This document shows positions 2,656 to 15,941 of a DNA stretch of 36,330 nucleotides, piece by piece. How positions within the stretch are numbered: position 1 is the first letter of the stretch; every line of letters starts with the position of its first letter. The notes beneath the pieces are model-generated. The model worked only from the letters and a program-made list of their open reading frames with translations. It was not told the DNA's origin and made no database searches. Origin of the DNA: Bacteroidales bacterium Bact_11 (GTDB lineage: Bacteria; Bacteroidota; Bacteroidia; Bacteroidales; UBA932); the NCBI GenBank assembly GCA_001603505.1, contig LUZC01000030.1:1-36330 (forward strand), read 5' to 3'. Made by a program: the position numbers and the translations under genes.

Positions 2656-4032
2656 TTAGTTTTCAGGTTGTTTGACTTTCTTGCCGGGCTTGTGCGTGCC
2701 GCCGAAGTTGACGGCCATGTCGCCGCGCTGGCTATGGTGGAACTCATAGGTATTGCCCGGCAGCACAGCATTGAGGATAATGCCCACCAGCGCCGCGACG
2801 GCCAGGCCGCTGAGCGAAGTGAAGCCGATGGTGATGGCGTCGTTCGCGCCGTACTTGATGCCGATGGCCAGCACGAGAATGAGGGCCGTGATGATGACGT
2901 TACGGCTCTCGGTGAGGTCGACGCGGTTCTCCACGAGGTTGCGCACACCGACTGCCGAAATCATACCGTAGAGCACGAGGCTCACGCCGCCGATGGTGGA
3001 GGCGGGCATGGCGCTGATGAGCGCGGCGAATTTCGGGCAGAAGCTCAGGAGGATGGCGAAGCAGGCGGCGATGCGGATCACGCGCGGGTCGAAGACGCGG
3101 GTAAGGTTGAGCACACCCGTGTTCTCACCGTACGTGGTGTTGGCCGGAGCGCCGAAGAGCGAGGCGAGGATGGTAGCCAGGCCGTCGCCCATCAGGGTAC
3201 GGTGCAGGCCCGGATCGCCCAGGTAGTTCTCACCCGTAGTCGAGGAGATGGCGCACATGTCGCCGATATGTTCGACCATCGTGGCCAGCGAAATCGGCAG
3301 GATGGCGATGATGGCCGCCACAATCAAGCCCCAGTTCGGCGACTTGAACACGGCGAAGGCAGTGTTCTGCATCTGGAACGGAGTTCCCAGCCAGGCAGCC
3401 TCTTTCACGCCGCTGAAGTCACACAGGCCGAAGCAGGCCGCGACGATGTAGGAACCGAGCACGCCGAGCAGGATCGGGACAATCTTGATCATACCCTTTC
3501 CCCAGATGTTGCAAACGACGATGATCACGATAGCCAGCAGGGCGATCCACCAGTTGGCCGAGCAACTCTGGATAGCAGTACCGGAGAGGCAAAGACCGAT
3601 GGCGATGATAATCGGACCGGTGACCACGGGCGGGAAGAAGCGCATGACTTTCTTCGGGCCGAAGGCTGCGAACAGACCTGCCAGCACAAAATACATCAGA
3701 CCCGCGCAAACCACGCCGATGCAGGCGTAAGGGAGCGATTCGGCCAGCGTGAGTCCCTGCTCCGTTCCCATCTGCGTCACAGCGGCATAACCACCGAGGA
3801 ATGCGAAGGAAGATCCGAGGAAGGCAGGTACTTTCCACTTGGTGAGCAAATGGAAGAGAAGGGTTCCCAAACCGGCAAAAAGAAGGGTTGCCGACACCGA
3901 CAACCCTGTAATGACTGGAACCAAGACAGTTGCTCCGAACATTGCAAACAAGTGCTGCAAACCGAGGAGGGTCATCTTGGGCTTTCCGAGCACACGGGCG
4001 TCGTAGATAGCTTGATTGTTGTTGGTAGACAT
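2656..4032 (-). CDS. uraA: Uracil/xanthine permease, NCS2 family, UraA type
   Basis: A 458-residue inner-membrane proton symporter of the UraA branch. Visible landmarks are FGATVLVPVITGL in the first helix, SFAFLGGY, VEHIGD (the glutamate equivalent to the UraA proton/substrate glutamate E241) and NTTYGENTGVLNLTRV (equivalent to E290). Both substrate-binding glutamates are therefore present. Some Bacteroidetes members are called uracil-xanthine permeases, and the base specificity cannot be fixed from sequence. It is the first gene of the operon: a good promoter (TTG-box and TATATTTG, 19-base spacer) lies just upstream at 4050-4080. It is followed by the Tsx-like gene after 16 bases. The C-terminus is lysine-rich (KPGKKVKQPEN), which is unremarkable. 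Confidence 0.92.
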   Translation of the reverse strand: MSTNNNQAIYDARVLGKPKMTLLGLQHLFAMFGATVLVPVITGLSVSATLLFAGLGTLLFHLLTKWKVPAFLGSSFAFLGGYAAVTQMGTEQGLTLAESLPYACIGVVCAGLMYFVLAGLFAAFGPKKVMRFFPPVVTGPIIIAIGLCLSGTAIQSCSANWWIALLAIVIIVVCNIWGKGMIKIVPILLGVLGSYIVAACFGLCDFSGVKEAAWLGTPFQMQNTAFAVFKSPNWGLIVAAIIAILPISLATMVEHIGDMCAISSTTGENYLGDPGLHRTLMGDGLATILASLFGAPANTTYGENTGVLNLTRVFDPRVIRIAACFAILLSFCPKFAALISAMPASTIGGVSLVLYGMISAVGVRNLVENRVDLTESRNVIITALILVLAIGIKYGANDAITIGFTSLSGLAVAALVGIILNAVLPGNTYEFHHSQRGDMAVNFGGTHKPGKKVKQPEN

Positions 4033-4121: not shown

Positions 4122-5375
4122 CTACGGATCGATCGCAACGCGGTCAACCACAACCCCTTTGCGGTCGAGCAGCGTAACGATCATTTTTTTCGGCGTGACG
4201 GCCAGATGCAGCGCGCCCACCGTCTTGGGGCCCTCATTCCAGCGATAGTCGATCAGCGACTGGTTCTCAGTCAGCGGCCCGAAACGTTCCTGTCCGCGCT
4301 CGTCATCGCTCGAAGGAGTCTGGATATAGACCACGCCCTTGTGGTGCGCGCGTACGTAGATATGGTTGTTGCCGGCCAGTGCCAGGTCAACCCCGTATTT
4401 TTCGAAAAGTTCGTGCCACCGGTTGTACTGCGAGGCGCGGCCGTCGGTACCGAAGAACCATTGATAGTGCTCGCAGACCACCTTGTAGCGCACATCGGGA
4501 TGCTCCTGCAGCACCTGTTCCACCCACGCGGCAGCCGCCGCGAATCCCGTGCTATCGCGCATCGACTCATTGTTGAGCATGATGAAGAGCGCGTCGTTGT
4601 ACTTAAACCAGTAACACACGCCCTCCTCTCCCGGATAGCCGTTGAGCGGGTTGGCCGTCACGTTGCGGAAGAACTGGTTGGTCAGGCCATAGCGGCGCGT
4701 CATGTTGTCGTGGTTACCGTTGAGCGAGGCCCACATGTGATCGCGGAACGGTTGCTCCCGATAGAGGTCGACCCAGAACGAATAGCTGCCGCCCCAGGCG
4801 CACACGTCGCCCAGGTTGAGCACCCAGTCGTATGAGTCGTATTCCTTCACGGTCTCCATCATCGCCATGGCGGCTTCCATCCGGCCCGGCAGCGGCGGAT
4901 AACTGTGGAAATCGGAAATGATGCAGGCGTTCCAGGCTCGGGCGCCGGCCGTCTTGAAAGCATGGACCGGGCTGTTGGTCTTCTGCCCGTCGCGACCCTC
5001 ATAATGCACGACATACCGATATTCAGTATTCGGCTTGAGACCGTCGAGCGCCACGTCATATTTAAGGAAACGTGCGTCTTCGTGGAAGTTCTCTCCGGCA
5101 GCATTCTTCGACCAAACCGTATCGAAAACCGCACAGAAGCGGCCCTCAGCCGGATACTGCACCGCCCTGCGCCAGCGATTGTCACGTGCTTCCGTCAGCA
5201 AGACGTAACTGGCCTCCGCCAAGGTGTCGGTCGCCCAGCTGATGCGCATCTGCGTAGAGGCATCCTCCCCCGGGCAGGTCGTCACGCAGAAAAGGTCGAG
5301 CCCGTCAAGATTCTGGGAAAAAGCCGCCGCCCCGCACAGGAGCGCGGAGCAGAGGGTGAGCAGCCACTTCCGCAT
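4122..5375 (-). CDS. Secreted calcineurin-like metallophosphoesterase with N-terminal fibronectin-like domain
   Basis: A 417-residue exported protein with a signal peptide (MRKWLLTLCSALLCGAAAFS). Residues about 25-145 form the all-beta domain found at the N-terminus of purple acid phosphatases. The metallophosphoesterase domain follows, with SDFH (D155, H157), NLGD (D190), NGNHD (221-223), CEH (H303) and a final GNNHIYVR around 336-343. In purple acid phosphatases the last motif is GHxHxYxR, so the first histidine is replaced by asparagine. I believe this variant is common in Bacteroidetes members, so activity is likely retained. It probably hydrolyses phosphoesters in the periplasm. It is the last gene of the long signalling operon, one base after the STAS gene. 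The substrate is unknown. Confidence 0.88.
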   Translation of the reverse strand: MRKWLLTLCSALLCGAAAFSQNLDGLDLFCVTTCPGEDASTQMRISWATDTLAEASYVLLTEARDNRWRRAVQYPAEGRFCAVFDTVWSKNAAGENFHEDARFLKYDVALDGLKPNTEYRYVVHYEGRDGQKTNSPVHAFKTAGARAWNACIISDFHSYPPLPGRMEAAMAMMETVKEYDSYDWVLNLGDVCAWGGSYSFWVDLYREQPFRDHMWASLNGNHDNMTRRYGLTNQFFRNVTANPLNGYPGEEGVCYWFKYNDALFIMLNNESMRDSTGFAAAAAWVEQVLQEHPDVRYKVVCEHYQWFFGTDGRASQYNRWHELFEKYGVDLALAGNNHIYVRAHHKGVVYIQTPSSDDERGQERFGPLTENQSLIDYRWNEGPKTVGALHLAVTPKKMIVTLLDRKGVVVDRVAIDP

Positions 5376-5376
5376 A

Positions 5377-5679
5377 CTACACGATGGTGATGATGTGCGA
5401 GAAACCCGTGATGTCGAAAACTTCTTTTACGTGAGGTTTCATGTTGCGCAGCACCAGCTTCGCACCCCGGGCAGAGACGTTCTTCTGCAACATCAGGAAC
5501 ATACGGAGGCCCTGGCTGCTGGTGTATTCCATGTCCGTGCAGTCCACATCGATTTCTTCGTGGGCGCCGTTCATCAGCGGCGTAATGTCCTTCATGAACT
5601 GGTCGGCATTCGTGGTGTCGAGCCTTCCTTCCAGTTTCACAAGCGCCTTTGCGCCATCTTCATTGATCGTAACGTTCAT
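5377..5679 (-). CDS. STAS-domain anti-anti-sigma factor (SpoIIAA/RsbV type)
   Basis: A 100-residue single-domain protein: MNVTINEDGAKALVKLEG is the first beta hairpin and EGRLDTTNA the usual next element. The phosphorylation loop reads YTSSQGLRMF; by alignment with the DS(S/T)G loop of SpoIIAA and RsbV the phospho-acceptor is Ser55. Known family members bind an RsbW-type kinase when unphosphorylated, are phosphorylated by it, and are reactivated by a SpoIIE-type phosphatase. All three partners are encoded within this operon: the phosphatase is immediately upstream at 5701-7599 and the ATPase domain is at 8543-9847. What the released kinase partner then controls is not evident; no sigma factor gene is present here. 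Confidence 0.92.
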   Translation of the reverse strand: MNVTINEDGAKALVKLEGRLDTTNADQFMKDITPLMNGAHEEIDVDCTDMEYTSSQGLRMFLMLQKNVSARGAKLVLRNMKPHVKEVFDITGFSHIITIV

Positions 5680-5700
5680 CTTTATCTCAATTTTAAAATG

Positions 5701-7599
5701 TTATTTCATAAGGAGTGACATGATGGTGATGTCGTCGTTCTGATCAGCACCACGCGTAAAATTTTTCACATGGGCATACAAATCCAGTACCGCGGATGTC
5801 GACGAAACCGAAGGATTCAGTTTGCCGGCCCACTCGAGAAGCCGGTCTTCGCCGAACTGGCTCTTGTCTTCGCGCTCGGCCTCGGTCACGCCGTCGGTGT
5901 AAATCACAAGCCGGGAGCCCCGCTCCACGACAATCGTCTCGTCCTCATAGGGGAAATTCTCGAAAAGTCCGACCGGCAGATTCGACTTGGCCCGCAGGAA
6001 AGAAGCCTTCCCGTCGGGTCCGACAATCACGATCGGATTGTGGCCGGCGTTGCAGAATCTCATCTCGCCAGTCTTCAGGTCGAGATGTCCCGCAAAGATG
6101 GTAACGAACATCTCGTTCTTGTTGCCGTCGCACAGGCAATTGTTAACGCGGCCCATAACTTCGGCCATCGACAGGCCCAGGGATCCGATAAAACGGAACG
6201 CGGCTCGGGCAATGGCCATGAAGAGTGCGGCAGGCACGCCCTTGCCCGACACATCACCCACCATGAAGAAGATCGAATCCCCTACCTCGATGAAATCGTA
6301 GAGATCGCCACCCACCTCCTTGGCAGGCTGCACCATCGCGTGGAGCGAACAGTCATCGCGCTGGGGAAAATTCTGGGGCAGCAGGCTCATCTGGATGTCG
6401 CGTGCAATGTTCAACTCGCTTTCATAGCGCTCGTTGGCAGCAGTCGTGCTCTTGAGCTCCACGATGTACTCGTTGATGGACTGCTGCATGTAAGCCAGCG
6501 AATCGCGCAGCTTCTTCAACTCATCCTTGCTTTTGACCTCGGGTATGCGGGCATTAAAGTTGCCTTTGGCTATGGTCATCGCCGAATTGGAGAACTCCAC
6601 GACCGGCATGGTCTGCTTGCGGATGAGGCTGCGGATGCCGAAGAACAGCGCCACCAGGCCGATCAGCAGCAGAAAGGCCAGAATCACAATCACCACATTC
6701 ACATTGTGGTAGATATCCTTGTAGGTACAAACCACGCCCATCGACCAGCCGTTGCTGAGCGGGCCATAAACCATGAACGACTCTTCGTTGTCGTTCAAGA
6801 ACATTTCCATGCCCCGATGCCCGGCGATCATTTCGCGCCCGATGCGCATGGCTGTCGTGTCGGTCATTTCCAGGGCAGAAGTAAAGATGGTCTCGTTGAG
6901 CACCTTATTGGGATCGGGATGCGCGATGTATGATCCATTACGGCCGATCAGCAGCGTATAGGAATTCTCGTAAGGCTTGATCGAAGCAACTCGCTCGGAA
7001 AGCCAGTCGAGCGAAATGTCGGCCGTCAGGATGCCGATCAACTGTCCGTCCCCATCCTTGAGCGGCATGGAGTAGGTGGACATCCGCTGTCCGGCACCGC
7101 CGTCGTCGTAATAGGGTTCGCTCCAGTAAGGCCGGCCCAGCAGCTTGGGAATCTGGTACCAGTCGAGCGTCGGATAGTCATATTGTTCATTGCCCATCTG
7201 CAGCGAATGAATCTCATGGGATTCGTCCCCTTCATAGGAATACGGAGCGAAATAAGGCCGTCCCTTGAAGTAACCGGGTTCGAAGGCCACGGCGCTGCCG
7301 ATAACGTTCGGATTGGACTGGACCAGCTCCCGAGTCACGGTAAACAGGAACTCTTCGTCATTGAGATGCTGCTCGACCATCCAGTCCACATTGTCCACGG
7401 CCCGCTCCACCTCCGTAATCACCTGTTCGATTTCAAGAATGGCGTTGTCCAGTACTTTTTCGGCCACGGTGTCGGCCTCCCGCATAACCGTCGCCGCCGC
7501 GAACAGCGCCGAGAGCAATGTAACGGTGAACATGAGTCCGGCCGTTACCAGCATCACGCGAAGGCTGAGCCTGGAGGCAAAATTCTTCTTCAAGTTCAT
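5701..7599 (-). CDS. Membrane sensor phosphatase: dCache-HAMP-SpoIIE (RsbU-like)
   Basis: A 632-residue membrane protein. A first transmembrane helix (about 15-37) and a second (about 302-322) flank a periplasmic double-Cache-type sensor with typical elements such as WYQIPK, YSMPLKDGDGQLIGILTADIS and LLIGRNGSYIAHPDPN. A HAMP linker (about 325-375) and short coiled coil follow, then the PP2C phosphatase: ARDIQMSLLP, GGDLYD (D432), GDVSGKG (D449), NAGHNP, YTDGVTEAE (D569) and NDDITI (D622/D623). All metal-binding aspartates are present, so it should dephosphorylate the STAS protein encoded 21 bases downstream. The start ATG overlaps the stop codon of the upstream binding-protein gene by four bases (ATGA), so the two are probably translated in a fixed ratio. 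Confidence 0.95.
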   Translation of the reverse strand: MNLKKNFASRLSLRVMLVTAGLMFTVTLLSALFAAATVMREADTVAEKVLDNAILEIEQVITEVERAVDNVDWMVEQHLNDEEFLFTVTRELVQSNPNVIGSAVAFEPGYFKGRPYFAPYSYEGDESHEIHSLQMGNEQYDYPTLDWYQIPKLLGRPYWSEPYYDDGGAGQRMSTYSMPLKDGDGQLIGILTADISLDWLSERVASIKPYENSYTLLIGRNGSYIAHPDPNKVLNETIFTSALEMTDTTAMRIGREMIAGHRGMEMFLNDNEESFMVYGPLSNGWSMGVVCTYKDIYHNVNVVIVILAFLLLIGLVALFFGIRSLIRKQTMPVVEFSNSAMTIAKGNFNARIPEVKSKDELKKLRDSLAYMQQSINEYIVELKSTTAANERYESELNIARDIQMSLLPQNFPQRDDCSLHAMVQPAKEVGGDLYDFIEVGDSIFFMVGDVSGKGVPAALFMAIARAAFRFIGSLGLSMAEVMGRVNNCLCDGNKNEMFVTIFAGHLDLKTGEMRFCNAGHNPIVIVGPDGKASFLRAKSNLPVGLFENFPYEDETIVVERGSRLVIYTDGVTEAEREDKSQFGEDRLLEWAGKLNPSVSSTSAVLDLYAHVKNFTRGADQNDDITIMSLLMK

Positions 7600-8543
7600 C
7601 GTATCATTTCTTCGTATTTGACATCGGTCTTTAAGTAACCCATCTCGCGCATCATGGCAACGAGCGAGGCGAACACATCGCGGCGCACCGGCGCAAAATC
7701 TACCACGCCCGTGGCCGGGTTGACCTGAAGATTCAGCATTTCATCGAGCATCATCCGCTGAAAAGGAAGGTTTGTTGCCACATTGTAGCTGCTGATGATC
7801 CTCATGGAAATTTCGAGCGCCTCTTCGCGGTGCTGCGCCGCATACTCCCATCCCCTCCGGGAAGCACGCACGAATTTATCGACCCGATCCTTGTTTTTCA
7901 AGTAGTATTGCTCCGTCACATAGAGCCCGTCTTCCGGGTAATCGAAACCATAATCCCGAAAACGGATCACGTTCTTGGGCGAAATCCCCCCCGTAGCCAA
8001 CACGAGCTGGAGGTACTCGCTGTAACTGTAGCAGAGCAGGGCATCCACGGCGCCCGACACGAACAGGTTGATCCCATGGATGTACGGAATCCACTGCACC
8101 TCCAACCCGTTCTTGTAACAGAACATGTCGCATACCTCACCGAACCCCACTTTCCATCGCCCGATTTTCGATCCGTCGAGGTCCTGCGGCGATTCGATGG
8201 GGAATTGCGCCACGCACATCAGGCCGTTGACCTGTGAGGTTTGCAGCACATTGACCAATTTGATCCCCTTTTCCCGCGCCAGCAACGCCGTTACCAACTG
8301 GGTCGTGATGATGTCTTCCTGCCTGTGTACGAGCTTGTCGATGACGCTCTCCGTGGAACTGCCACCGAAATGATCGATGACCACTTCCAGGCCTTCTTCC
8401 GCATAGAAGCCCTTCTCCAGAGCCACATAATACCCTGCAAACTGGGTTTGCGGCGTCCACTGCGGCATGAAGTAGATTACTTCCTGCGCCCGTGCCGGAA
8501 GGAAGAAGAAACAAAGCAGCAATGCAAGGGAAATCTTTCTCAT
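7596..8543 (-). CDS. NMT1/THI5-type periplasmic substrate-binding protein (orphan)
   Basis: A 315-residue exported protein with a signal peptide ending near ARAQ (MRKISLALLLCFFFLPARAQ). The sequence right after, with FAGYYVALEKGFYAEEGL, is the hallmark opening of the NMT1/THI5-like binding proteins (relatives of ThiY, SsuA and TauA). A further conserved region is around WKVGFGEVCD. Such proteins normally feed an ABC importer, but no permease or ATPase gene is nearby. The frame is open upstream, yet the signal peptide and a TAATG overlap with the preceding gene fix the start at 8543. Coupled on both sides to signalling genes, it may present a ligand to the dCache phosphatase that follows; that is inference. 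The ligand is unknown. Confidence 0.88.
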   Translation of the reverse strand: MRKISLALLLCFFFLPARAQEVIYFMPQWTPQTQFAGYYVALEKGFYAEEGLEVVIDHFGGSSTESVIDKLVHRQEDIITTQLVTALLAREKGIKLVNVLQTSQVNGLMCVAQFPIESPQDLDGSKIGRWKVGFGEVCDMFCYKNGLEVQWIPYIHGINLFVSGAVDALLCYSYSEYLQLVLATGGISPKNVIRFRDYGFDYPEDGLYVTEQYYLKNKDRVDKFVRASRRGWEYAAQHREEALEISMRIISSYNVATNLPFQRMMLDEMLNLQVNPATGVVDFAPVRRDVFASLVAMMREMGYLKTDVKYEEMIR

Positions 8544-9847
8544 TACGCCACTTTCTTTTTCATGATGAGGACATTGCATCCATCCTCATATTTATACTCG
8601 ATATGGTCCATCATCTGCTTGCACAGGAAGATGCCCAATCCTCCGATCTCCCGGTCCTCCGCCGACAGGGTAATGTCGGGATCAGGCTTGTCGAGGGGAT
8701 TGAAGGGAACGCCGGCATCGCGCAGCAGAATGGTGAGCATCACACCCTCCGGATCGAGTTCCGTGCCGACCTCAATCCAGCCCATACCCCCTGCATAGGC
8801 ATATCGGACCACATTTTCCACGGCTTCCTCGATGGAAAGCCGGATTTTGAACTGCAGGGCTTCATCCTGCGGAATATCGGGCGAAGACATCAGGTAATCG
8901 ATGATTTCGCCGCATTTGTCGATGATGGGTTCGAATCTCTTTTTCATGGTGACAAGCGAAGGAAGGATCAGATGTATGGCTTTGGGTAAGATATCGATTT
9001 GAAAGGTATGGCTGGCCAGCAACTCGCCGTCGAGGGCGATATCGATCAGGTTGCGGGAAATGACTTCCACGTGCCTGGCCCGCTTGTAGCGCAGCAGGCG
9101 ACGGGCCCAGGGCGTATCGAGATGATCGCCCCGGCGGTAGACCGGAAACAGGCGCAGGAAACTCAGGAGCAGCATCCAACGGACAAGGCAGACCTCCATC
9201 CACCCGTCATCGATTTCCGCACGCGGTGCGCAAATGTACTCACCGCCGCAAACGCGGCCGTTGGCCACCGTACAGAGCAGCAACCGACGCCGGTTCAGCT
9301 TTTCTCCATCGGCAATCACCTTGATCTTGTTGTTGCGCCCGACAAAAATGGCCTTGACAACGCCCCATCGGTAGGCGTTCTTCGCGTGGCCTGCTTCCAT
9401 GGCCTGATAGGCGAACGACGCGACCACCGCATCAAACCCGATGTTGATGACGTTGATGGCGTAGTCGTCGTTGACTTTCATGACGTCGACCTGGCGGGTC
9501 TCTCCTTCCAGGATCTTCCGAAGGGAGGTAAAATCGCGGTCCGGAAAACACTTCAAAAAGTCGTTGGTTTCACCATAAGCCAGGATCGCCAACGACTTGT
9601 TCGACGAGCCCACCATGCCCGAAACCACTTCATTCAATGTTCCCGATCCGCCGCACGCCACAAAACAGACCTTCTCGTTCGGATGGAGATCACAGTAAAT
9701 CTTGACGAAACGGGTACCGTCACCCACACCGCGCGTGAGATAAGTCTGATACTCCAGGTTGGGACCCGCTGCCCGGATCTGCCGGAACACGTCGTCCGCA
9801 ATGGCCGCCTTGTCGTCCCTCCCGTTGATGATGAAAATATAAAGCAT
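8543..9847 (-). CDS. Diacylglycerol-kinase-like domain fused to an RsbW-type histidine-kinase-like ATPase
   Basis: A 434-residue cytosolic protein with two domains. Residues 1 to about 295 follow the DAGK/LCB5 catalytic fold: GGSGTLNEVVSGM (66-78), YGETNDF (91-97), NIGFDA (135-140), ANGRVCGGEYICAPRAEIDD (195-214) and IALDGE (270-275). The usual GGDGT has become GGSGT (Ser68, codon TCG), which removes an aspartate considered essential for phosphoryl transfer, so this half may bind ATP or lipid without catalysis. Residues about 303-434 are an RsbW/SpoIIAB-type GHKL ATPase with N box EEAVENVV (340-347), G1 box DAGVPFN (377-383) and G2 box GGLGIFL (402-408), all intact. The second half should phosphorylate the STAS protein at 5377-5679. 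I do not know this fusion from characterised systems. Confidence 0.88.
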   Translation of the reverse strand: MLYIFIINGRDDKAAIADDVFRQIRAAGPNLEYQTYLTRGVGDGTRFVKIYCDLHPNEKVCFVACGGSGTLNEVVSGMVGSSNKSLAILAYGETNDFLKCFPDRDFTSLRKILEGETRQVDVMKVNDDYAINVINIGFDAVVASFAYQAMEAGHAKNAYRWGVVKAIFVGRNNKIKVIADGEKLNRRRLLLCTVANGRVCGGEYICAPRAEIDDGWMEVCLVRWMLLLSFLRLFPVYRRGDHLDTPWARRLLRYKRARHVEVISRNLIDIALDGELLASHTFQIDILPKAIHLILPSLVTMKKRFEPIIDKCGEIIDYLMSSPDIPQDEALQFKIRLSIEEAVENVVRYAYAGGMGWIEVGTELDPEGVMLTILLRDAGVPFNPLDKPDPDITLSAEDREIGGLGIFLCKQMMDHIEYKYEDGCNVLIMKKKVA

Positions 9848-9850
9848 ACG

Positions 9851-11263
9851 TTATTTGAGGAGAGTATTTTCGATATGTGCGCGCCAGGGCGGCAACAAGG
9901 CCTCCCGATTGGCGAAATGAATCATATAGAGGGCACCGTACGGCGCGATGAGGCGATTCGCCTCTTCGACGGTCGTACCGTCGTCGAAATAATGGCGCAC
10001 GAAGGCCTCCCATACCTTCCGCATCTGTGCCTGAGAGATATGGAAAATCTGCTGCGAGAGTTCGTCACTGTCATTACCGGCACACACGAACCAGAGCATG
10101 CCCAGGTCGAAGAAAGGATGCCCGTACCGGAAATCGGCCAGGTCGATCCAATAGGTTTTCCCTTCGGCCTCAATGATATTGCCGGTGTGCATATCGCCGT
10201 GCAGGCAGGTGGTTGCATCAGGCGCATCGTTCACAAAGGCGTGCAGGCGGGCCTTCTGCGCATCGTCGAAATCATGGCTCGCTTCGATGACGCCGTGGAA
10301 ATGGTCTTTCACGCTGGAAAAGACCGACGTATTGCAGGGGATTGCGTGAAGTTTGCGGCACTCCCGGGCGAAGGCCGCCACATACTCTTCCAACCGCTGC
10401 GGTTCCTGCGAAATGGCTCGGGCGAAAGAGCGCTTTCCCTCAATCCGTTCAAATTCGACACCCACCCGCTTGCCATCGGTCACCAGGCGGAAAGCCCGGG
10501 GAATCCGGAGTCCCAGGTCCATGATGGCCCAGGTCATTCGGAGCTCCTGCTCCGGTACGGAAAGCGGCATATAGCCGGCGTAAAGCTTGATCATCCGGCA
10601 GGCACGGCGATGGTTGTAACTCACAGCCGTGTATCCGTCGCCGCTCACCTCATAGTCTTCCAGATCGATCCATTCCGGACGGGGACGGCCGAACACATGT
10701 TCAATGTGCGCCACGAATTCCGAGAAGGCAGGTGTTCCCGCCAGTTCGCTGAGCGACTGAGCCAGGCCGCGATAATGCCACTCGTGGTCAGCCCGGCCGC
10801 CGGGCGCATGAAACCTTTCCCACAGTTTGTCGCCCAGTTCGTCGTAATCGCGGGCAATGGCACGCATATTTGAGAGCTTGTCGCCCAGCGCCACCATCTT
10901 CGCATCGAGCGAAGCTGTTGCAAGACGGTCGATGGCCGCCTGCTTGCGCTCCCGCCAGCTGTCGGCCTCGCTCAACCCTTCAACGGATTTGTCGCTCTCC
11001 TTCTCCACCAGGGAGGCCACACGATCCCCGAATTCGCGGCGGAGATCGCCGAGCGTCACTTCGGTATCTTCCACCACGTCGTGCAGGACGGCCGCGGCCA
11101 GAAGCTCCTGGTCCGGCGTAAGGGTGGCCACGATGGCCACCGCTTCAAGCGGGTGGACAATGTAGGGGAAGCCTTTCCCACGGCGTTCCACGTTGTGATG
11201 GGCCTTTACGGCGAATTCAATGGCCCTGTCAAGCAATGTACTGTCGATAAACTTCTTCGGCAT
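9851..11263 (-). CDS. HD-domain (p)ppGpp hydrolase-like domain fused to an APH-type kinase domain
   Basis: A 470-residue cytosolic protein. Residues 1-195 match the HD hydrolase of RelA/SpoT and MESH1-like enzymes: KGFPYIVHPLEAV (H37), AAAVLHDVVEDT (H61, D62, E65, D66) and ALGDKLSNMR (D128), so the metal-binding set is complete. Residues about 200-470 match the aminoglycoside/choline-type phosphotransferase fold, close to the family I know as TIGR02172. It has the catalytic loop CLHGDMHTGNII (D357, N362) and the metal-binding WIDLADF (D374), followed by GHPFFDLGMLWF. The first half may degrade alarmones made by the synthetase encoded two bases upstream; the small-molecule or protein substrate of the kinase half is unknown. 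The fusion is, to my knowledge, uncharacterised. Confidence 0.88.
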   Translation of the reverse strand: MPKKFIDSTLLDRAIEFAVKAHHNVERRGKGFPYIVHPLEAVAIVATLTPDQELLAAAVLHDVVEDTEVTLGDLRREFGDRVASLVEKESDKSVEGLSEADSWRERKQAAIDRLATASLDAKMVALGDKLSNMRAIARDYDELGDKLWERFHAPGGRADHEWHYRGLAQSLSELAGTPAFSEFVAHIEHVFGRPRPEWIDLEDYEVSGDGYTAVSYNHRRACRMIKLYAGYMPLSVPEQELRMTWAIMDLGLRIPRAFRLVTDGKRVGVEFERIEGKRSFARAISQEPQRLEEYVAAFARECRKLHAIPCNTSVFSSVKDHFHGVIEASHDFDDAQKARLHAFVNDAPDATTCLHGDMHTGNIIEAEGKTYWIDLADFRYGHPFFDLGMLWFVCAGNDSDELSQQIFHISQAQMRKVWEAFVRHYFDDGTTVEEANRLIAPYGALYMIHFANREALLPPWRAHIENTLLK

Positions 11264-11265
11264 GG

Positions 11266-12354
11266 CTACATATCATGGATTTTACTGATTTGTTCGAAAA
11301 TACGGGCAGCCCGTTCCGTATTGTACCGGGATGGCCCGTTCAATCGTTCGAGGAACAGCTCGACTTCTTTTTCGCCTCCCTGCTCTGCGGCATACACGAG
11401 GCAGACGTTCTGCAATCCGAGGGTCGAGGCAATGATGTCGAGATCAGTTCCGCTAATCTGGTGGAGAGCCAGCTGATAGGCTTTTACTGAGTACTTCTTG
11501 CGCATGTTCTCCACGTCACCCAGCGTCCGGAGCCCCATTTTGAGCATCGGCTCCAGATAAGGCATCCCGCTGAGCGGCTGGACTTCGGCCTGGTTGATGG
11601 CGGCGATCTTCGCGTTTAGCGAAGCAAACGGGTCGAGCGCCAGATAACTGCGGAGCGTGTCGACATTCAGCGAAACATCTTCGAAACTGCCGTCCTTGAC
11701 CAACTGTTCCACCTTACGACGGTAGTCGGTGAGATCTTTCCGGATCCGGCTGAATTCGTTGTCGGCCAGCTCCAGGAGTCCCGCCAGACGGGAAAGGCTC
11801 CGGATATATTCGGTCGGGACTTCGAAGCCGCTCTTGTAGCCTGTGTCGTGATTCATATTGGCCCACACGTGCTGAAGCGACGTACGCATCTGCACCTCGA
11901 AACGGAATTCGTTGATCTGGGGGCACTCCGGATCGAAATAGAGCGATTTCGGAATCCGGCAGACATAGTGAAGCGACATGTAGCCGAACGTATCGATCCC
12001 CAAAAGCTTGCGCTTGTCCACCGAATTGTCCCAGTCCACTTCGAATATACCATCGACCATGGCCGCGATCTTGTCGACCTCATCGCTGTAAAAAGTGATG
12101 ATCCGGGCGCCCACCAGGTCGGTGATGTCGGAAAGGGTCTGATATTTCTGCCCTTTCAGCTCCAGCTTGCCCACCAGGCTGGCTTCCTGTTTGACTCGGG
12201 CCTCAATGCCCGACACCACCAGATTGGCCCGGTCGATACAGGCAAGCAATTGCTCGAGCACAAGTGTCTTCATCTTGGAAAACACGGGAAGCATCTCGCG
12301 GTATTCCTCCAGCATCATCATGCAGTGCAGATCCAGTCCGTAGTCCTTATCCAT
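11266..12354 (-). CDS. RelA/SpoT-type alarmone synthetase with C-terminal extension
   Basis: A 362-residue cytosolic protein. Residues about 35-220 form a RelA/SpoT synthetase domain: DLVGARIITFYSDEVDKI (79-96), GIDTFGYMSLHYVCRIP (119-135, with the GY.SLH motif) and EVQMRTSLQHVWANMNHD (153-170) followed by TGYKS. These cover the expected catalytic and nucleotide-binding positions, so (p)ppGpp-type synthesis is likely. There is no N-terminal hydrolase and no TGS or ACT domain, so it is a small alarmone synthetase rather than a long RSH enzyme. About 140 further residues follow, with a helical repeat-like character that I do not recognise. The ATG at 12354 overlaps the end of the antiporter gene by eight bases (ATGGATAA). 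The hydrolase-like gene follows after two bases. Confidence 0.9.
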   Translation of the reverse strand: MDKDYGLDLHCMMMLEEYREMLPVFSKMKTLVLEQLLACIDRANLVVSGIEARVKQEASLVGKLELKGQKYQTLSDITDLVGARIITFYSDEVDKIAAMVDGIFEVDWDNSVDKRKLLGIDTFGYMSLHYVCRIPKSLYFDPECPQINEFRFEVQMRTSLQHVWANMNHDTGYKSGFEVPTEYIRSLSRLAGLLELADNEFSRIRKDLTDYRRKVEQLVKDGSFEDVSLNVDTLRSYLALDPFASLNAKIAAINQAEVQPLSGMPYLEPMLKMGLRTLGDVENMRKKYSVKAYQLALHQISGTDLDIIASTLGLQNVCLVYAAEQGGEKEVELFLERLNGPSRYNTERAARIFEQISKIHDM

Positions 12355-13963
12355 TGCTTGTCGCGTTTTGGTTGAGATAGAGCACGTCGTCGGCAAGCAG
12401 CACCGTGTCGCCGTGCGGAATGAATGTCGTTTTGCCGCGCTTGACCAGAATCAGCTGGACTTTGCGGCGCTTGGGATGCTCGCGCACTTTTTTCCCGACC
12501 AGCGGATCGTCGGGGGCAAGCCGCTGCTCCACAATATTGAGGTTTTGTCCGCCCTTGTACGACATGGAACTCATGACCACCTTGTCGCCCTCCAGGATGT
12601 AGGTGTCGCCATTGGGCACGACCCGGTCGCCGTTGGCGCGCACAATGATGCACAGCAACATATTCTTCGGAATGCCCAGGTCACGCACGAGCTTGTCTTT
12701 CCACGGGCTGTCGGCCGAAACGAGAATCTCGCTGAAGAGCATATCGGTCTCTTCGGAAAAATCGTTGAACGTACGCATCACGTCGGCATCCTTGTCAATC
12801 ATGTCGAGTTTTCGGGCGGCCCAGGGGATAAGGGACCCTTGCAAGGCAATCGATATGAGCACGATGCAGAACACTACACTGAAAATATCGTGCTGGGGCA
12901 CCACTGTCCCCACCGTAGCCATGATGGCAAACACGATGGACGAGGCGCCACGAAGCCCCATGAACGAGATGAGCACCTGCTGCTTGAAGCCATATTTGCC
13001 AAAGGGCGTCAGCACGGCGCCCACGGCCAGCGGACGGGCCACGAAAAACAGCACGGCAAAGAGGATGAGTGCCGGCATGATACTGCCGCCCATCGTCGCA
13101 GGACGCGCGATCAAACCCAGCATGAAGAAAATCAGCACCTGCATCAGGCCGGTAAAACCGTCGAAAAAGTGCACCAGTTCCTTTTTATCCTTGAAGTCCG
13201 CATTGCCGAGGATCATGCCTACCAGATAGGCGCTCAAGTAGCCGTTGCCGCCCACCATCGCGGGGAAGGCGTAGGACGCCACGGCAATGGCCACGATGTA
13301 AAGAGAGTCGAATCCGGACGTGGCGAAACGCATACGCTTCATTCCGAAGACGGCCAGCCAGGCGATCGCCAGGCCGATAACCGCTCCGAAAACAATCTGT
13401 GAGAAAAGGATCCAGGCCACGCTGCCGGCGGAAGTGGATCCCTGAAGCATCGACAGCAGCACCGCCGTCAGCATATACGACATCGGGTCGTTGGATCCGC
13501 TTTCCACCTCCAGAAGCGGTGCCGTGTGGTTTTTGAGGCCGAGCTTGCGGGAGCGCAGCACCGAGAACACGGAAGCAGCATCGGTCGAAGCCACCACAGA
13601 GCCCATCAGCAGGCTCTCGATCCAACCCCACTTCAGCAGAAAGTGGCAACCCGCACCTGTGATGCCCGCCGTAATGGCCACACCTATGGTCGAAAGCAGG
13701 CCCGCTTCCACCACCACCGTTTTAGCCGTCCGCCACGACGTGCCGAAGCCACCGTAAAACATGATGAAAAGCAGCGCCACCGTGGCAATTTCCTTCGCAA
13801 AGGAATAGTCCTGAAAGGGTATCGGAATCAAACCATTGTTGCCGAAGGCGATACCCAGCAGGATGAATGCGAGCAGCACCGGCACACCGATCTTGTACGT
13901 GACATCATTCAGAATCACGCAGATAAAGATAACGACGGCGATCAGGACAAGGAAGAGGGTCAT
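12347..13963 (-). CDS. Potassium/proton antiporter, NhaP2/CvrA type (CPA1) with C-terminal TrkA-C-like domains
   Basis: A 538-residue protein. The first 400 residues are a polytopic CPA1 exchanger with 12-13 membrane segments, including MFYGGFGT, ASTDAASVFSVL and ESGSNDP, the ion-binding aspartates of this family. After residue 400 there is a cytosolic part containing VRANGDRVVPNGDTYILEGD and a second similar unit VKRGKTTFIPHGDTVLLADD, typical of TrkA-C/RCK-C regulatory domains. NhaP2 homologues exchange K+ (and Na+) for H+ and act in ion and pH balance. The start overlaps the upstream amidohydrolase stop by four bases (ATGA), and its own end overlaps the alarmone synthetase. Co-translation with alarmone genes hints at stress-linked control of K+, which is inferred. 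Confidence 0.93.
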   Translation of the reverse strand: MTLFLVLIAVVIFICVILNDVTYKIGVPVLLAFILLGIAFGNNGLIPIPFQDYSFAKEIATVALLFIMFYGGFGTSWRTAKTVVVEAGLLSTIGVAITAGITGAGCHFLLKWGWIESLLMGSVVASTDAASVFSVLRSRKLGLKNHTAPLLEVESGSNDPMSYMLTAVLLSMLQGSTSAGSVAWILFSQIVFGAVIGLAIAWLAVFGMKRMRFATSGFDSLYIVAIAVASYAFPAMVGGNGYLSAYLVGMILGNADFKDKKELVHFFDGFTGLMQVLIFFMLGLIARPATMGGSIMPALILFAVLFFVARPLAVGAVLTPFGKYGFKQQVLISFMGLRGASSIVFAIMATVGTVVPQHDIFSVVFCIVLISIALQGSLIPWAARKLDMIDKDADVMRTFNDFSEETDMLFSEILVSADSPWKDKLVRDLGIPKNMLLCIIVRANGDRVVPNGDTYILEGDKVVMSSMSYKGGQNLNIVEQRLAPDDPLVGKKVREHPKRRKVQLILVKRGKTTFIPHGDTVLLADDVLYLNQNATSNG

Positions 13964-15150
13964 AATTCGTGGTGTTCCATCAGAATCCGGCCCTGGCAGA
14001 CCACCGAGTCGATGCAGCTGCTGTCGGCTGCATATACCCAGTTAGAAAGGAAGTTGTGGCACGGCTGCATCTTTTCGCAGCGCATATCTATCAGAAGGGC
14101 GTCGGCCAGTTTCCCGGGAGCGATCACGCCGGCGTCGATGCCGAAGGCCTCGGCGCCATTGCGGGTGGCCATGGCAAAAGCTTCCGCCGCAGGCATGGTT
14201 TCGGGATCACCGCTGCTGACCTTGGCCAGCAGGGCGGCGAATTTCATCTCCTCGCGCATGTCGAGGTTGTTGTTCGAGGAATCGCCGTCAGTGCCCAGCG
14301 TGATGCGGCAACCCGCCTGGTGCAGCATCTTGTACGGGAAAATACCCGACGACAGTTTCATGTTCGAGCAGGGGCAGTGCGAAAGGGTCACCCCCCGCTC
14401 CGCCAGGATGGCGGCTTCTTCTTCGTCCACGTGGACCACATGGGCCGCTATGACATCCGGACCCAGAACCCCCAGGCGGTCGAGATAGCGCACCGGCGTG
14501 GTGCCGTGGTCCCGCAGGCAGTCTTCCACTTCCCTGCGCGTCTCCGACAGGTGGATGTGCAGCTTCAGACCCAGTTCCCGGGCGGTTTCCGCACAGCGGA
14601 CCAAGAGGTCTTCGCCCACCGTATAGATGGCGTGCGGGGCCACGGTCAGGGAGACCATCCCGCCGGTCGGATCGCTCCAATGACGGAGGATGTCGAGCTT
14701 CTCCTCCCGCTGCGACTTGGAATGTGCATCGACGAAAGTCACGCCGATAGCGGCACGAAGGCCATATTCCCGGACGATGTCGATGGTCTGGTCGATGTCG
14801 AAATACATGTCGGAGAAGAACACCGAGCCCGTGCGGATCATTTCGCGGACGGCCAGGCGCGAGCCTTCGCAAATGTCGGCCGACGTCATCCGGTTCTCAA
14901 AGGGCCAGATGAAATCCTCCAACCACTTCTGCAGCGGCATGTCGTCGGCATAGCCGCGCAGCAGGCTCATCGCCGCATGGGTGTGCGTGTTGTAGAACGG
15001 CGGGACGATGGCCATCCCGTCCGCCTCGAGAACACGGTCGGCCAGCGCATCCGGCGCCGCCGACAGATCCTTGAAGCGGCCCCCTTCCACGAGGATATTC
15101 GTGGTGCGGCCGTCCAGCCATGCATTGCGGATCAACAGGCTGTCCATCAT
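13960..15150 (-). CDS. Amidohydrolase, MtaD/SsnA family (adenosine-type or S-adenosylhomocysteine deaminase-like)
   Basis: A 396-residue cytosolic metal-dependent hydrolase of the MtaD/SsnA/TrzN group. It shows HTHAAMSLLRGYADD (metal histidines and the family RGYADD stretch), SDMYFD, HIHLSETRREVED, HVVHVDEEE, CPCSNMKL and GTDGDSSNNNLD (catalytic aspartate). Members deaminate 5-methylthioadenosine, S-adenosylhomocysteine or related purine nucleosides; the exact substrate cannot be read here. The frame is open about 75 codons upstream, but those residues are a shadow of deoC. The start ATG at 15150 overlaps the deoC stop (TGATG), with an alternative ATG directly after. Pairing with deoC fits nucleoside salvage or breakdown. 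It ends overlapping the antiporter start. Confidence 0.9.
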   Translation of the reverse strand: MMDSLLIRNAWLDGRTTNILVEGGRFKDLSAAPDALADRVLEADGMAIVPPFYNTHTHAAMSLLRGYADDMPLQKWLEDFIWPFENRMTSADICEGSRLAVREMIRTGSVFFSDMYFDIDQTIDIVREYGLRAAIGVTFVDAHSKSQREEKLDILRHWSDPTGGMVSLTVAPHAIYTVGEDLLVRCAETARELGLKLHIHLSETRREVEDCLRDHGTTPVRYLDRLGVLGPDVIAAHVVHVDEEEAAILAERGVTLSHCPCSNMKLSSGIFPYKMLHQAGCRITLGTDGDSSNNNLDMREEMKFAALLAKVSSGDPETMPAAEAFAMATRNGAEAFGIDAGVIAPGKLADALLIDMRCEKMQPCHNFLSNWVYAADSSCIDSVVCQGRILMEHHEL

Positions 15151-15941
15151 CAATAGTATTTGATTTCGCGTCCTTCGAGCGCCGAAAGCAGGTTGTTGGC
15201 CATCCGGCTGGCACCGAAGCGGAAATATTTCTTGTTGAGCCAGGCCTCGCCCAGCGAATCGGCAACGATGTTCCAGTAGGTCACGGCATCTTCCGGCGTG
15301 GCGATGCCGCCGGCCGGCTTGAAACCCACCATCCGTCCCGTCTTCCCGTAGTACGCCTTGATGCAGCGGCACATGATCTGCGCGGCTTCCGGCGTGGCGG
15401 CCGGCTGCATCTTGCCGGTGGAGGTCTTGATGAAATCGGCACCGGCTTCCATGGCCAGGAACGAGGCCTGCTCGATGAGGGCGGGTTCCTTCAGCGCGCC
15501 GGTCTCCAGGATGACCTTCAGCACGACCTTCGGGTTCAGCGCCCGGATGGCCCAGCCGATTTCCACGATCTCGCGCGCGGCCTCTTCCGGACGGTTCTCC
15601 AGAAAAGCGTTCAAGGCAAGTACGATATCTACCTCGTCGGCTCCGTCGCGAACCGCGGCTTCACATTCCGCGATCTTGACCGCAAGCGGACTCTGCGAGG
15701 CGGGAAAACAACCACCTACCACAGTGACGTCCACATCCGCTTCTGTGCGCGTGCCCGCCACCGTCGCGGCGAAATTGGGATACACGCAGATCGAGGCCGG
15801 CAGCGGATAGTCGGGGAACGATTCGTGGAAACGGTTCACTTTTTCGGTCATCGCGGCGACCTTGGTGTAGGTGTCCGTGCTGTTGAGGGTGGTCAGGTCG
15901 ATCATCCCAAGCACAGCTTTGTAGATTGCTTTGTTGTCCAT
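15150..15941 (-). CDS. deoC: Deoxyribose-phosphate aldolase
   Basis: A 263-residue cytosolic class I aldolase that splits 2-deoxyribose 5-phosphate into glyceraldehyde 3-phosphate and acetaldehyde. Visible landmarks: IDLTTLN near the N-terminus, SICVYPNF, GADEVDIVLALNAFLENR, LKVILETG (with the catalytic-site lysine) and DFIKTSTGK, whose lysine forms the Schiff base, then MVGFKPAGGI. Length is close to that of the E. coli-type enzyme. It follows dtd after 12 bases and overlaps the nucleoside-type amidohydrolase gene by one base, which fits degradation of deoxynucleosides. Nothing unusual was noted in the active site. Confidence 0.96.
   Translation of the reverse strand: MDNKAIYKAVLGMIDLTTLNSTDTYTKVAAMTEKVNRFHESFPDYPLPASICVYPNFAATVAGTRTEADVDVTVVGGCFPASQSPLAVKIAECEAAVRDGADEVDIVLALNAFLENRPEEAAREIVEIGWAIRALNPKVVLKVILETGALKEPALIEQASFLAMEAGADFIKTSTGKMQPAATPEAAQIMCRCIKAYYGKTGRMVGFKPAGGIATPEDAVTYWNIVADSLGEAWLNKKYFRFGASRMANNLLSALEGREIKYY

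Follow-up and report, generated by a model that had tools for sequence, protein, structure and literature searches.

The locus analysed here raises the question of what a bacterial partner switch controls when no sigma factor is encoded beside it. It lies in a stretch of 36,330 nucleotides from Bacteroidales bacterium Bact_11 (GenBank assembly GCA_001603505.1, contig LUZC01000030.1), to which we refer as the window and which is contig C30 of a genome of 1.88 Mb that is 81% complete (G000; in what follows, G with a number denotes a genome and L with a number a fetched locus). A run of minus-strand genes encodes there a small alarmone synthetase (SAS), a hydrolase and the three parts of a SpoIIE-SpoIIAA-SpoIIAB type switch. 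A reading of the DNA made without database searches, hereafter the sequence-only reading, had proposed that the output of this switch might be the alarmone enzymes or an attached lipid-kinase-like (DAGK) domain. The alarmone output proved to be the best reading, because the association around SAS is conserved, survives rearrangement and contains no sigma factor, whereas the DAGK half of the proposal fell. We put the probability that this is a sensor-gated partner switch with an alarmone cycle as its output at about 57%.

In the window, the genes are transcribed from the minus strand in the order amidohydrolase, K+/H+ antiporter, SAS, HD_4-APH fusion, DAGK-HATPase_c_2 fusion, NMT1-type binding protein, dCache-HAMP-SpoIIE protein, STAS protein and metallophosphatase. 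Taking the longest open reading frames (ORFs), the successive gaps along this run are -4, -8, 2, 3, -37, -4, 21 and 1 bases. The seven genes from SAS to the metallophosphatase had been described by the sequence-only reading, and their positions and domains were all recovered as claimed, as was a spacing of at most 21 bases with several overlaps (2, 3, -37, -4, 21 and 1 across the seven). The run is longer than that, with the antiporter gene overlapping the start of SAS by 8 bases and the amidohydrolase gene overlapping the antiporter gene by 4.

The SAS gene (11266..12354, minus strand, as are all genes of the run) encodes a RelA_SpoT domain (PF04607) followed by a conserved, all-helical C-terminal domain (approximately residues 230-362, window 11269-11667). 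The protein has what defines a small alarmone synthetase, namely the RelA_SpoT domain, a RelP/RelQ fold and the catalytic residues, which are invariant in 79-80 of 81 alignment rows (here and below, the rows covering each residue were counted). In the predicted structure (predicted local distance difference score, pLDDT, 84; predicted template-modelling score, pTM, 0.52), the synthetase part matches RelQ/RelP, and the best fold matches among those listed are the small alarmone synthetases of B. subtilis and S. aureus. The C-terminal part is modelled as a helical domain with high local confidence, and no clear counterpart of it was found among the 50 Foldseek matches listed, which comprise synthetases, long Rel proteins and CapRel. 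It is conserved across the family, and in the window's clade its end is usually IHDM or nearly so. The HD_4 domain of the next gene (10679..11263) is recognised as a small alarmone hydrolase by its domain match, its likeness to solved hydrolases and a residue check in which the metal-binding and catalytic motifs H...HDxxED...D were present in 73 of 73 rows. The other half of this fusion is an APH-like kinase domain (TIGR02172; 9851..10678) with HGDxxxxN and the later D in place, the residues checked being invariant in 63 rows.

The active-site residues of the partner switch are equally intact. The SpoIIE domain of the dCache-HAMP-SpoIIE membrane sensor phosphatase (5701..7599; PF07228, 166 bits) keeps the metal-binding Asp residues of a PPM phosphatase at five positions in 75 of 75 rows, and the RsbW/SpoIIAB-type HATPase_c_2 domain (8543..8953; PF13581, 70.8 bits) keeps the N-box Glu/Asn and the G-boxes of a GHKL serine kinase in 72 of 72. 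The STAS-only switch protein (5377..5679; TIGR00377, 70.7 bits against a cut-off of 53.45) offers a candidate acceptor serine in the adjacent S54 and S55, conserved in 70 of 70, and alignment to S56 of RsbV would make S55 the more likely of the two. The earlier statement that all key residues are visible stands, then, for the switch and the alarmone enzymes, and fails for the DAGK domain, which reads GGSGT where its family has GGDGT. The HATPase_c_2 domain of the window is the only such match found in G000. Elsewhere in this genome (contig C70, 1151-1992), a second SpoIIE gene is directly followed by a STAS gene, and no second HATPase_c_2 was found in G000 to accompany them.

The association recurs in relatives. 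With a cut-off of E at most 1e-40, the SAS subfamily was found in 67 of 249 family genomes and in 9 of 393 order genomes, the window's own genome being included in both. Apart from the window and the locus of G325 (L169), this gave 74 SAS loci, 66 from the family and 8 from the order, including two whose SAS match is weak or broken (L157 and L158). Counting a gene as present when it lay anywhere in the fetched stretch around SAS, we found HD in 68, APH in 59, STAS in 59, HATPase in 58 and SpoIIE in 57 of these loci. When at least 6 kb downstream and at least 3 kb upstream were available (53 loci), the counts were 52 for HD, 47 each for HATPase and STAS, and 45 each for SpoIIE and APH. Chance would place a SpoIIE gene within 10 kb in approximately 1.8% of cases, as calculated from 45 SpoIIE genes in 20 genomes, versus the 57 of 74 observed. 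The switch genes share the strand of SAS in 171 of 174 cases, and a related STAS occurs in 66 of the 67 family genomes with SAS. A phylum sample gave ten distant SAS relatives beyond the order (27-37% identity), two of them on short stretches (L163, 8.4 kb; L168, 14 kb), and no switch gene was found near any of the ten.

The exact seven-gene set of the sequence-only reading is not the recurring unit, since three of its members are lineage-specific (DAGK, NMT1 and the secreted phosphatase, present in 11, 10 and 1 of the 74 loci, respectively); the unit consists of SAS, HD, APH, sensor-SpoIIE, HATPase and STAS, to which an antiporter is added in 15. That reading had named homologues lying mostly apart as the finding that would speak against it. 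Around SAS they lie together, yet switch genes alone also occur without SAS. The gene set, its intact active-site residues and its conserved linkage are direct observations.

Within this unit, the order of the genes is far from fixed. The commonest arrangement (31 of 74 loci, with or without the antiporter) is SAS-HD-APH followed by a sensor, SpoIIE and HATPase in one protein and then STAS, and phosphatase and kinase form a single protein in 38 of the 74 loci (one such protein was domain-scanned). In the window's clade the order is SAS, HD-APH fusion, DAGK-HATPase fusion, NMT1 where present, SpoIIE and STAS. Elsewhere we found HATPase-SpoIIE-STAS-SAS before an HD-APH fusion; STAS-SAS and an HD-APH fusion before a SpoIIE-HATPase fusion; a SpoIIE-HATPase fusion before STAS-SAS-APH-HD; HATPase-SpoIIE-STAS-DAGK-SAS-HD; and more. 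On the SAS tree, 58 complete sets (the window, L077 and L079 included) cannot be explained by fewer than 15 changes in arrangement, although some of these changes consist only in the absence of HD or APH or in an additional SpoIIE, and the tree was built by a quick method without a mixture model, gave long-branch warnings and leaves out L157 as too short. Since the arrangement changed so often and the linkage was kept, the linkage outlives gene order. We conclude that the association is real and recurrent and withstands rearrangement. It brings a complete partner switch together with a dedicated synthetase and hydrolase for alarmones and includes no sigma factor. In L146 (6126-6827) and six further loci, SAS is immediately preceded on its own strand by a gene that by eye resembles a cytidylate kinase.

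Which protein does STAS act on? The absence of a sigma factor nearby, claimed from the sequence, was borne out, as no ECF- (extracytoplasmic function) or RpoD-type factor was found among the six-frame ORFs of at least 60 aa in the window; some of the ORFs chosen for the sigma profiles were in the wrong frame, and true ones were still detected. Of 20 genomes, 18 (including G000) gave a single Sigma70_r3 protein, and G286 and G101 gave two each. Therefore, no SigB/SigF-type factor is visible in those 18, and the one of G000 (81% complete) is presumably the housekeeping factor. An output of the SigB/SigF type was rejected, with no sigma match in the window and no extra group-3 sigma factor seen in G000.

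Three further observations concern SAS itself. In G342, G415 and G420, the genome has one Sigma70_r3 protein, and its one STAS, one HATPase_c_2 over the cut-off and one SpoIIE all lie inside the SAS cluster. In G371 and G502, the sole STAS-only gene is paired with SAS (L109 and L110; further STAS matches fall within frames of 577-652 aa), and the sole HATPase_c_2 over the cut-off is on a different contig beside NMT1 and SpoIIE (L099 and L100), where the fetched stretch contains no STAS. These two count as one event because they are sister genomes on the tree. Finally, STAS and SAS are directly adjacent in 8 of the 74 loci, in several orders. The pairing in G371 and G502, the single-copy genomes and the adjacency suggest that STAS has SAS as its partner, by genomic and not physical evidence.

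From these observations we infer phosphorylation, a contact between STAS and SAS, the nucleotide made and the direction of control, as follows. A ligand, perhaps delivered through the NMT1-type protein, a likely co-sensor (7596..8579, with a signal-peptide-like start; its gene adjoins that of dCache-SpoIIE in several loci), would act on the dCache sensor. On this signal the dCache-HAMP-SpoIIE protein would dephosphorylate STAS, and the HATPase_c_2 domain would phosphorylate it again and so reset the switch. The phosphorylation state of STAS would control the co-encoded alarmone cycle, most likely through binding of unphosphorylated STAS to SAS, probably at the conserved C-terminal helical domain, which would alter SAS activity. 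The HD domain would degrade the alarmone product, and the response may be carried on by the same or another co-encoded protein, such as the APH kinase or the antiporter. In its most specific form, the proposal is that STAS directly binds and gates a dedicated SAS through a family-specific C-terminal domain, turning an outside signal into an alarmone pulse, that hydrolase, APH kinase and antiporter are further members, and that a dead lipid kinase was fused in the window's lineage as a membrane- or ligand-sensing add-on. We offer this full version tentatively, at somewhat less than even odds.

Several findings weigh against an alarmone output. The tie is one-sided, holding SAS to the switch in most cases but not the switch to SAS. 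A related STAS is present in 48 of 182 family genomes without this SAS, and complete switches of close kin lack SAS in the fetched stretch in L095, L096, L098 and L078 (10001-12810, with a DAGK gene). G318, the genome of L096 (95% complete), gave not a single SAS match, so that the output of such switches must be a different one in that genome. G000 itself carries three more SpoIIE genes and a second STAS. From the side of SAS, HATPase, SpoIIE and STAS are not all present in 19 of the 74 loci, several of which are at contig ends. Seven loci (L104, L105, L108, L121, L138, L143 and L156) have none of the three despite more than 6 kb downstream, with each of their genomes holding at least one elsewhere. 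G325 (98% complete) keeps SAS, HD, DAGK-HATPase and SpoIIE and has lost STAS and APH; in its locus (L169, 12020-14100), a permease comes after SpoIIE. Mirror-tree partial correlations over 53 loci were 0.41 for STAS-HATPase, 0.28 for STAS-SpoIIE, 0.21 for STAS-SAS and 0.46 for SAS-APH, so that SAS distances follow APH more closely than STAS; these correlations are too weak to decide.

A further point of this kind is that an ECF target could exist among the Sigma70_r2 genes, which number 10 in G000 and, counting housekeeping ones, 2-18 across 8 genomes; ECF-type genes are present elsewhere in G000. Following the classical SpoIIAB/RsbW logic, the switch could control such a factor encoded elsewhere, with the alarmone enzymes merely co-regulated or feeding into the switch, and the related switches found without SAS would fit this. 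We nevertheless regard this as unlikely: the window has no sigma gene, an ECF match was found in only 5 of 96 loci (L063-L158), always upstream of SAS and never between SAS and STAS, the census of Sigma70_r3 proteins reveals no factor of the SigB/SigF type in 18 of 20 genomes, and the kept linkage to SAS and HD would be left unexplained. To about the same degree we doubt that STAS and HATPase act instead on the APH kinase or the antiporter, with the alarmone from SAS and HD as an input tuning the switch or the antiporter. APH is found in 59 and an antiporter, occupying three positions, in 15 of the 74 loci, and the correlation with APH is the highest obtained for SAS; however, the two-gene SAS-STAS loci L109 and L110 show neither of them (in L109, 1.5 kb of contig is left downstream), and L077, L079, L085, L141 and L144 gave no APH match. 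A third explanation, by which SAS is a toxSAS-type toxin or a phage-defence enzyme, HD its antidote and the switch an unrelated neighbour, would draw on a PADLOC match of SAS to the candidate defence family PDC-S33 (49.6 bits; four window proteins were scanned), on CapRel appearing lower down among the Foldseek matches listed for the SAS model and on SAS-HD pairs without a switch nearby. It appears very improbable to us given that the switch is linked in most loci and through rearrangements, that the top fold matches among those listed are the B. subtilis and S. aureus enzymes and that the Pfam-scanned genes of the window resemble ordinary metabolism and transport. An alarmone cycle as the output remains the reading that we prefer.

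The other candidate output named by the sequence-only reading, the DAGK-like domain (8954..9847), had to be rejected as a core element, as it is present in only 11 of 74 SAS loci and the motif Asp is absent in all 15 fusions examined. In these fusions the Asp of GGDGT is replaced by Ser in 9, the window included, and by Thr in 6; the residue is retained in 6 of 27 aligned DAGK rows, no fusion among them. The unfused DAGK of the SAS cluster L077 keeps it. This Asp is presumably required for catalysis. The domain, which forms the N-terminal part of the ATPase fusion, has the DgkB/YegS/sphingosine-kinase fold, and the loss of the Asp sets it apart from the DgkB/YegS lipid kinases; the GGDG motif is thought to be involved in catalysis of such kinases, according to the part of PMC8553519 that deals with it. 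The fused domain is probably a pseudokinase, perhaps binding a lipid or nucleotide and tuning the kinase or placing it at the membrane. Because DAGK genes adjoin SpoIIE away from SAS in L078, L082, L084, L086 and L087, the domain may be part of the sensor side of such switches. The stand-alone DAGK-like genes of L082, L084, L086 and L087 lack the GGDGT Asp as well. Named relatives of the DAGK-HATPase protein are mostly Bacteroidales metagenome-assembled genomes, many of them from the ruminant gut.

Among the remaining members of the run, the K+/H+ antiporter (12347..13963), a possible effector, was assigned by its Na_H_Exchanger and TrkA_C matches. Antiporters matching it at 34-37% identity, one of which was scanned and has the same two domains, occur in the SAS clusters L111, L114, L115, L118, L121, L123, L125, L128, L129, L130, L132, L135, L139, L144 and L145, and the gene stands after STAS, after HD or, as in the window, before SAS. 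The metallophosphatase (4122..5375; purple-acid-phosphatase N domain and Metallophos, with a signal-peptide-like start), a lineage-specific rider, was found among the fetched loci in L097 and L069 only. Genes of nucleobase or nucleoside use flank the cluster (40-549, 578-1897, 2656-4032, 13960-15276 and 15150-15941), comprising a PurE-like aminoimidazole ribonucleotide (AIR) carboxylase, two permeases of the xanthine/uracil family, the amidohydrolase with weak similarity to adenosine deaminase and a DeoC-family aldolase. A permease cluster also lies downstream in the loci of 12 relatives, which could be plain synteny.

Alarmone synthesis is usually seen as a response to internal cues, e.g., stalled ribosomes. 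The operon suggests a sensor-controlled trigger of a stringent-type response, whose physical link would be the proposed STAS-SAS contact. If this is true, an extracellular ligand would be coupled directly to a growth-control nucleotide in gut Bacteroidales, partner switching without a sigma factor would extend from cyclic di-GMP (c-di-GMP) to alarmones, and stringent-response control would gain a previously undescribed class.

In the open-access literature (PubMed Central), no description of this operon or of a partner switch with an alarmone output was found. The 2011 survey of RelA/SpoT homologues lists, in the part concerned with them, Rel and RshB and no SAS for eight Bacteroidia taxa (PMC3153485). 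Compared with RelP and RelQ, the window SAS has the same fold (5dec, TM score of 0.81 on the target) and checked residues, but it carries the extra conserved C-terminal domain and scores 42.9 bits against a YjbM equivalog cut-off of 320. A parallel in this respect is Tde-SAS of Treponema denticola, an SAS with an all-helical C-terminal domain and a separate hydrolase, Tde-SAH, in which the helical domain represses synthesis according to the text on this protein in PMC10434055; that text does not contain the words STAS or operon. Tde-SAS has tetratricopeptide repeats, whereas the domain found here has no clear match among the 50 listed. Repression by such a domain is a precedent for the gating of SAS proposed above.

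With the SpoIIE-SpoIIAA-SpoIIAB and RsbU-RsbV-RsbW switches of Bacillus, the locus shares the three protein families and their conserved active-site residues, and it differs in the missing sigma factor and in the single phosphatase-kinase protein of 38 of the 74 SAS loci. The sequence-only reading had held that known systems of this type act on a sigma factor, which is too narrow, since STAS switches on c-di-GMP synthases have been published; the passages of PMC8457831 devoted to them describe SiaC/SiaD, HsbA/HsbD and BgrV/BgrR. For the SiaABCD system of Pseudomonas aeruginosa, the same passages report that SiaC, when unphosphorylated, attaches to the helical stalk of SiaD, a diguanylate cyclase, and is kept from doing so once SiaB has phosphorylated it. 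The logic of our proposed mechanism is drawn from this system, which likewise combines a phosphatase, a kinase and a STAS-type protein whose phosphorylation state controls the synthase of a nucleotide second messenger. The two are nonetheless distinct, as the SpoIIE protein of the window is not a SiaA (69 bits against a cut-off of 700), no GGDEF domain was found in the window genes scanned and the place of the diguanylate cyclase would be taken by a RelA_SpoT synthetase that has a hydrolase of its own. Therefore, partner switching onto a nucleotide synthase is already known, and the alarmone output would be the new element.

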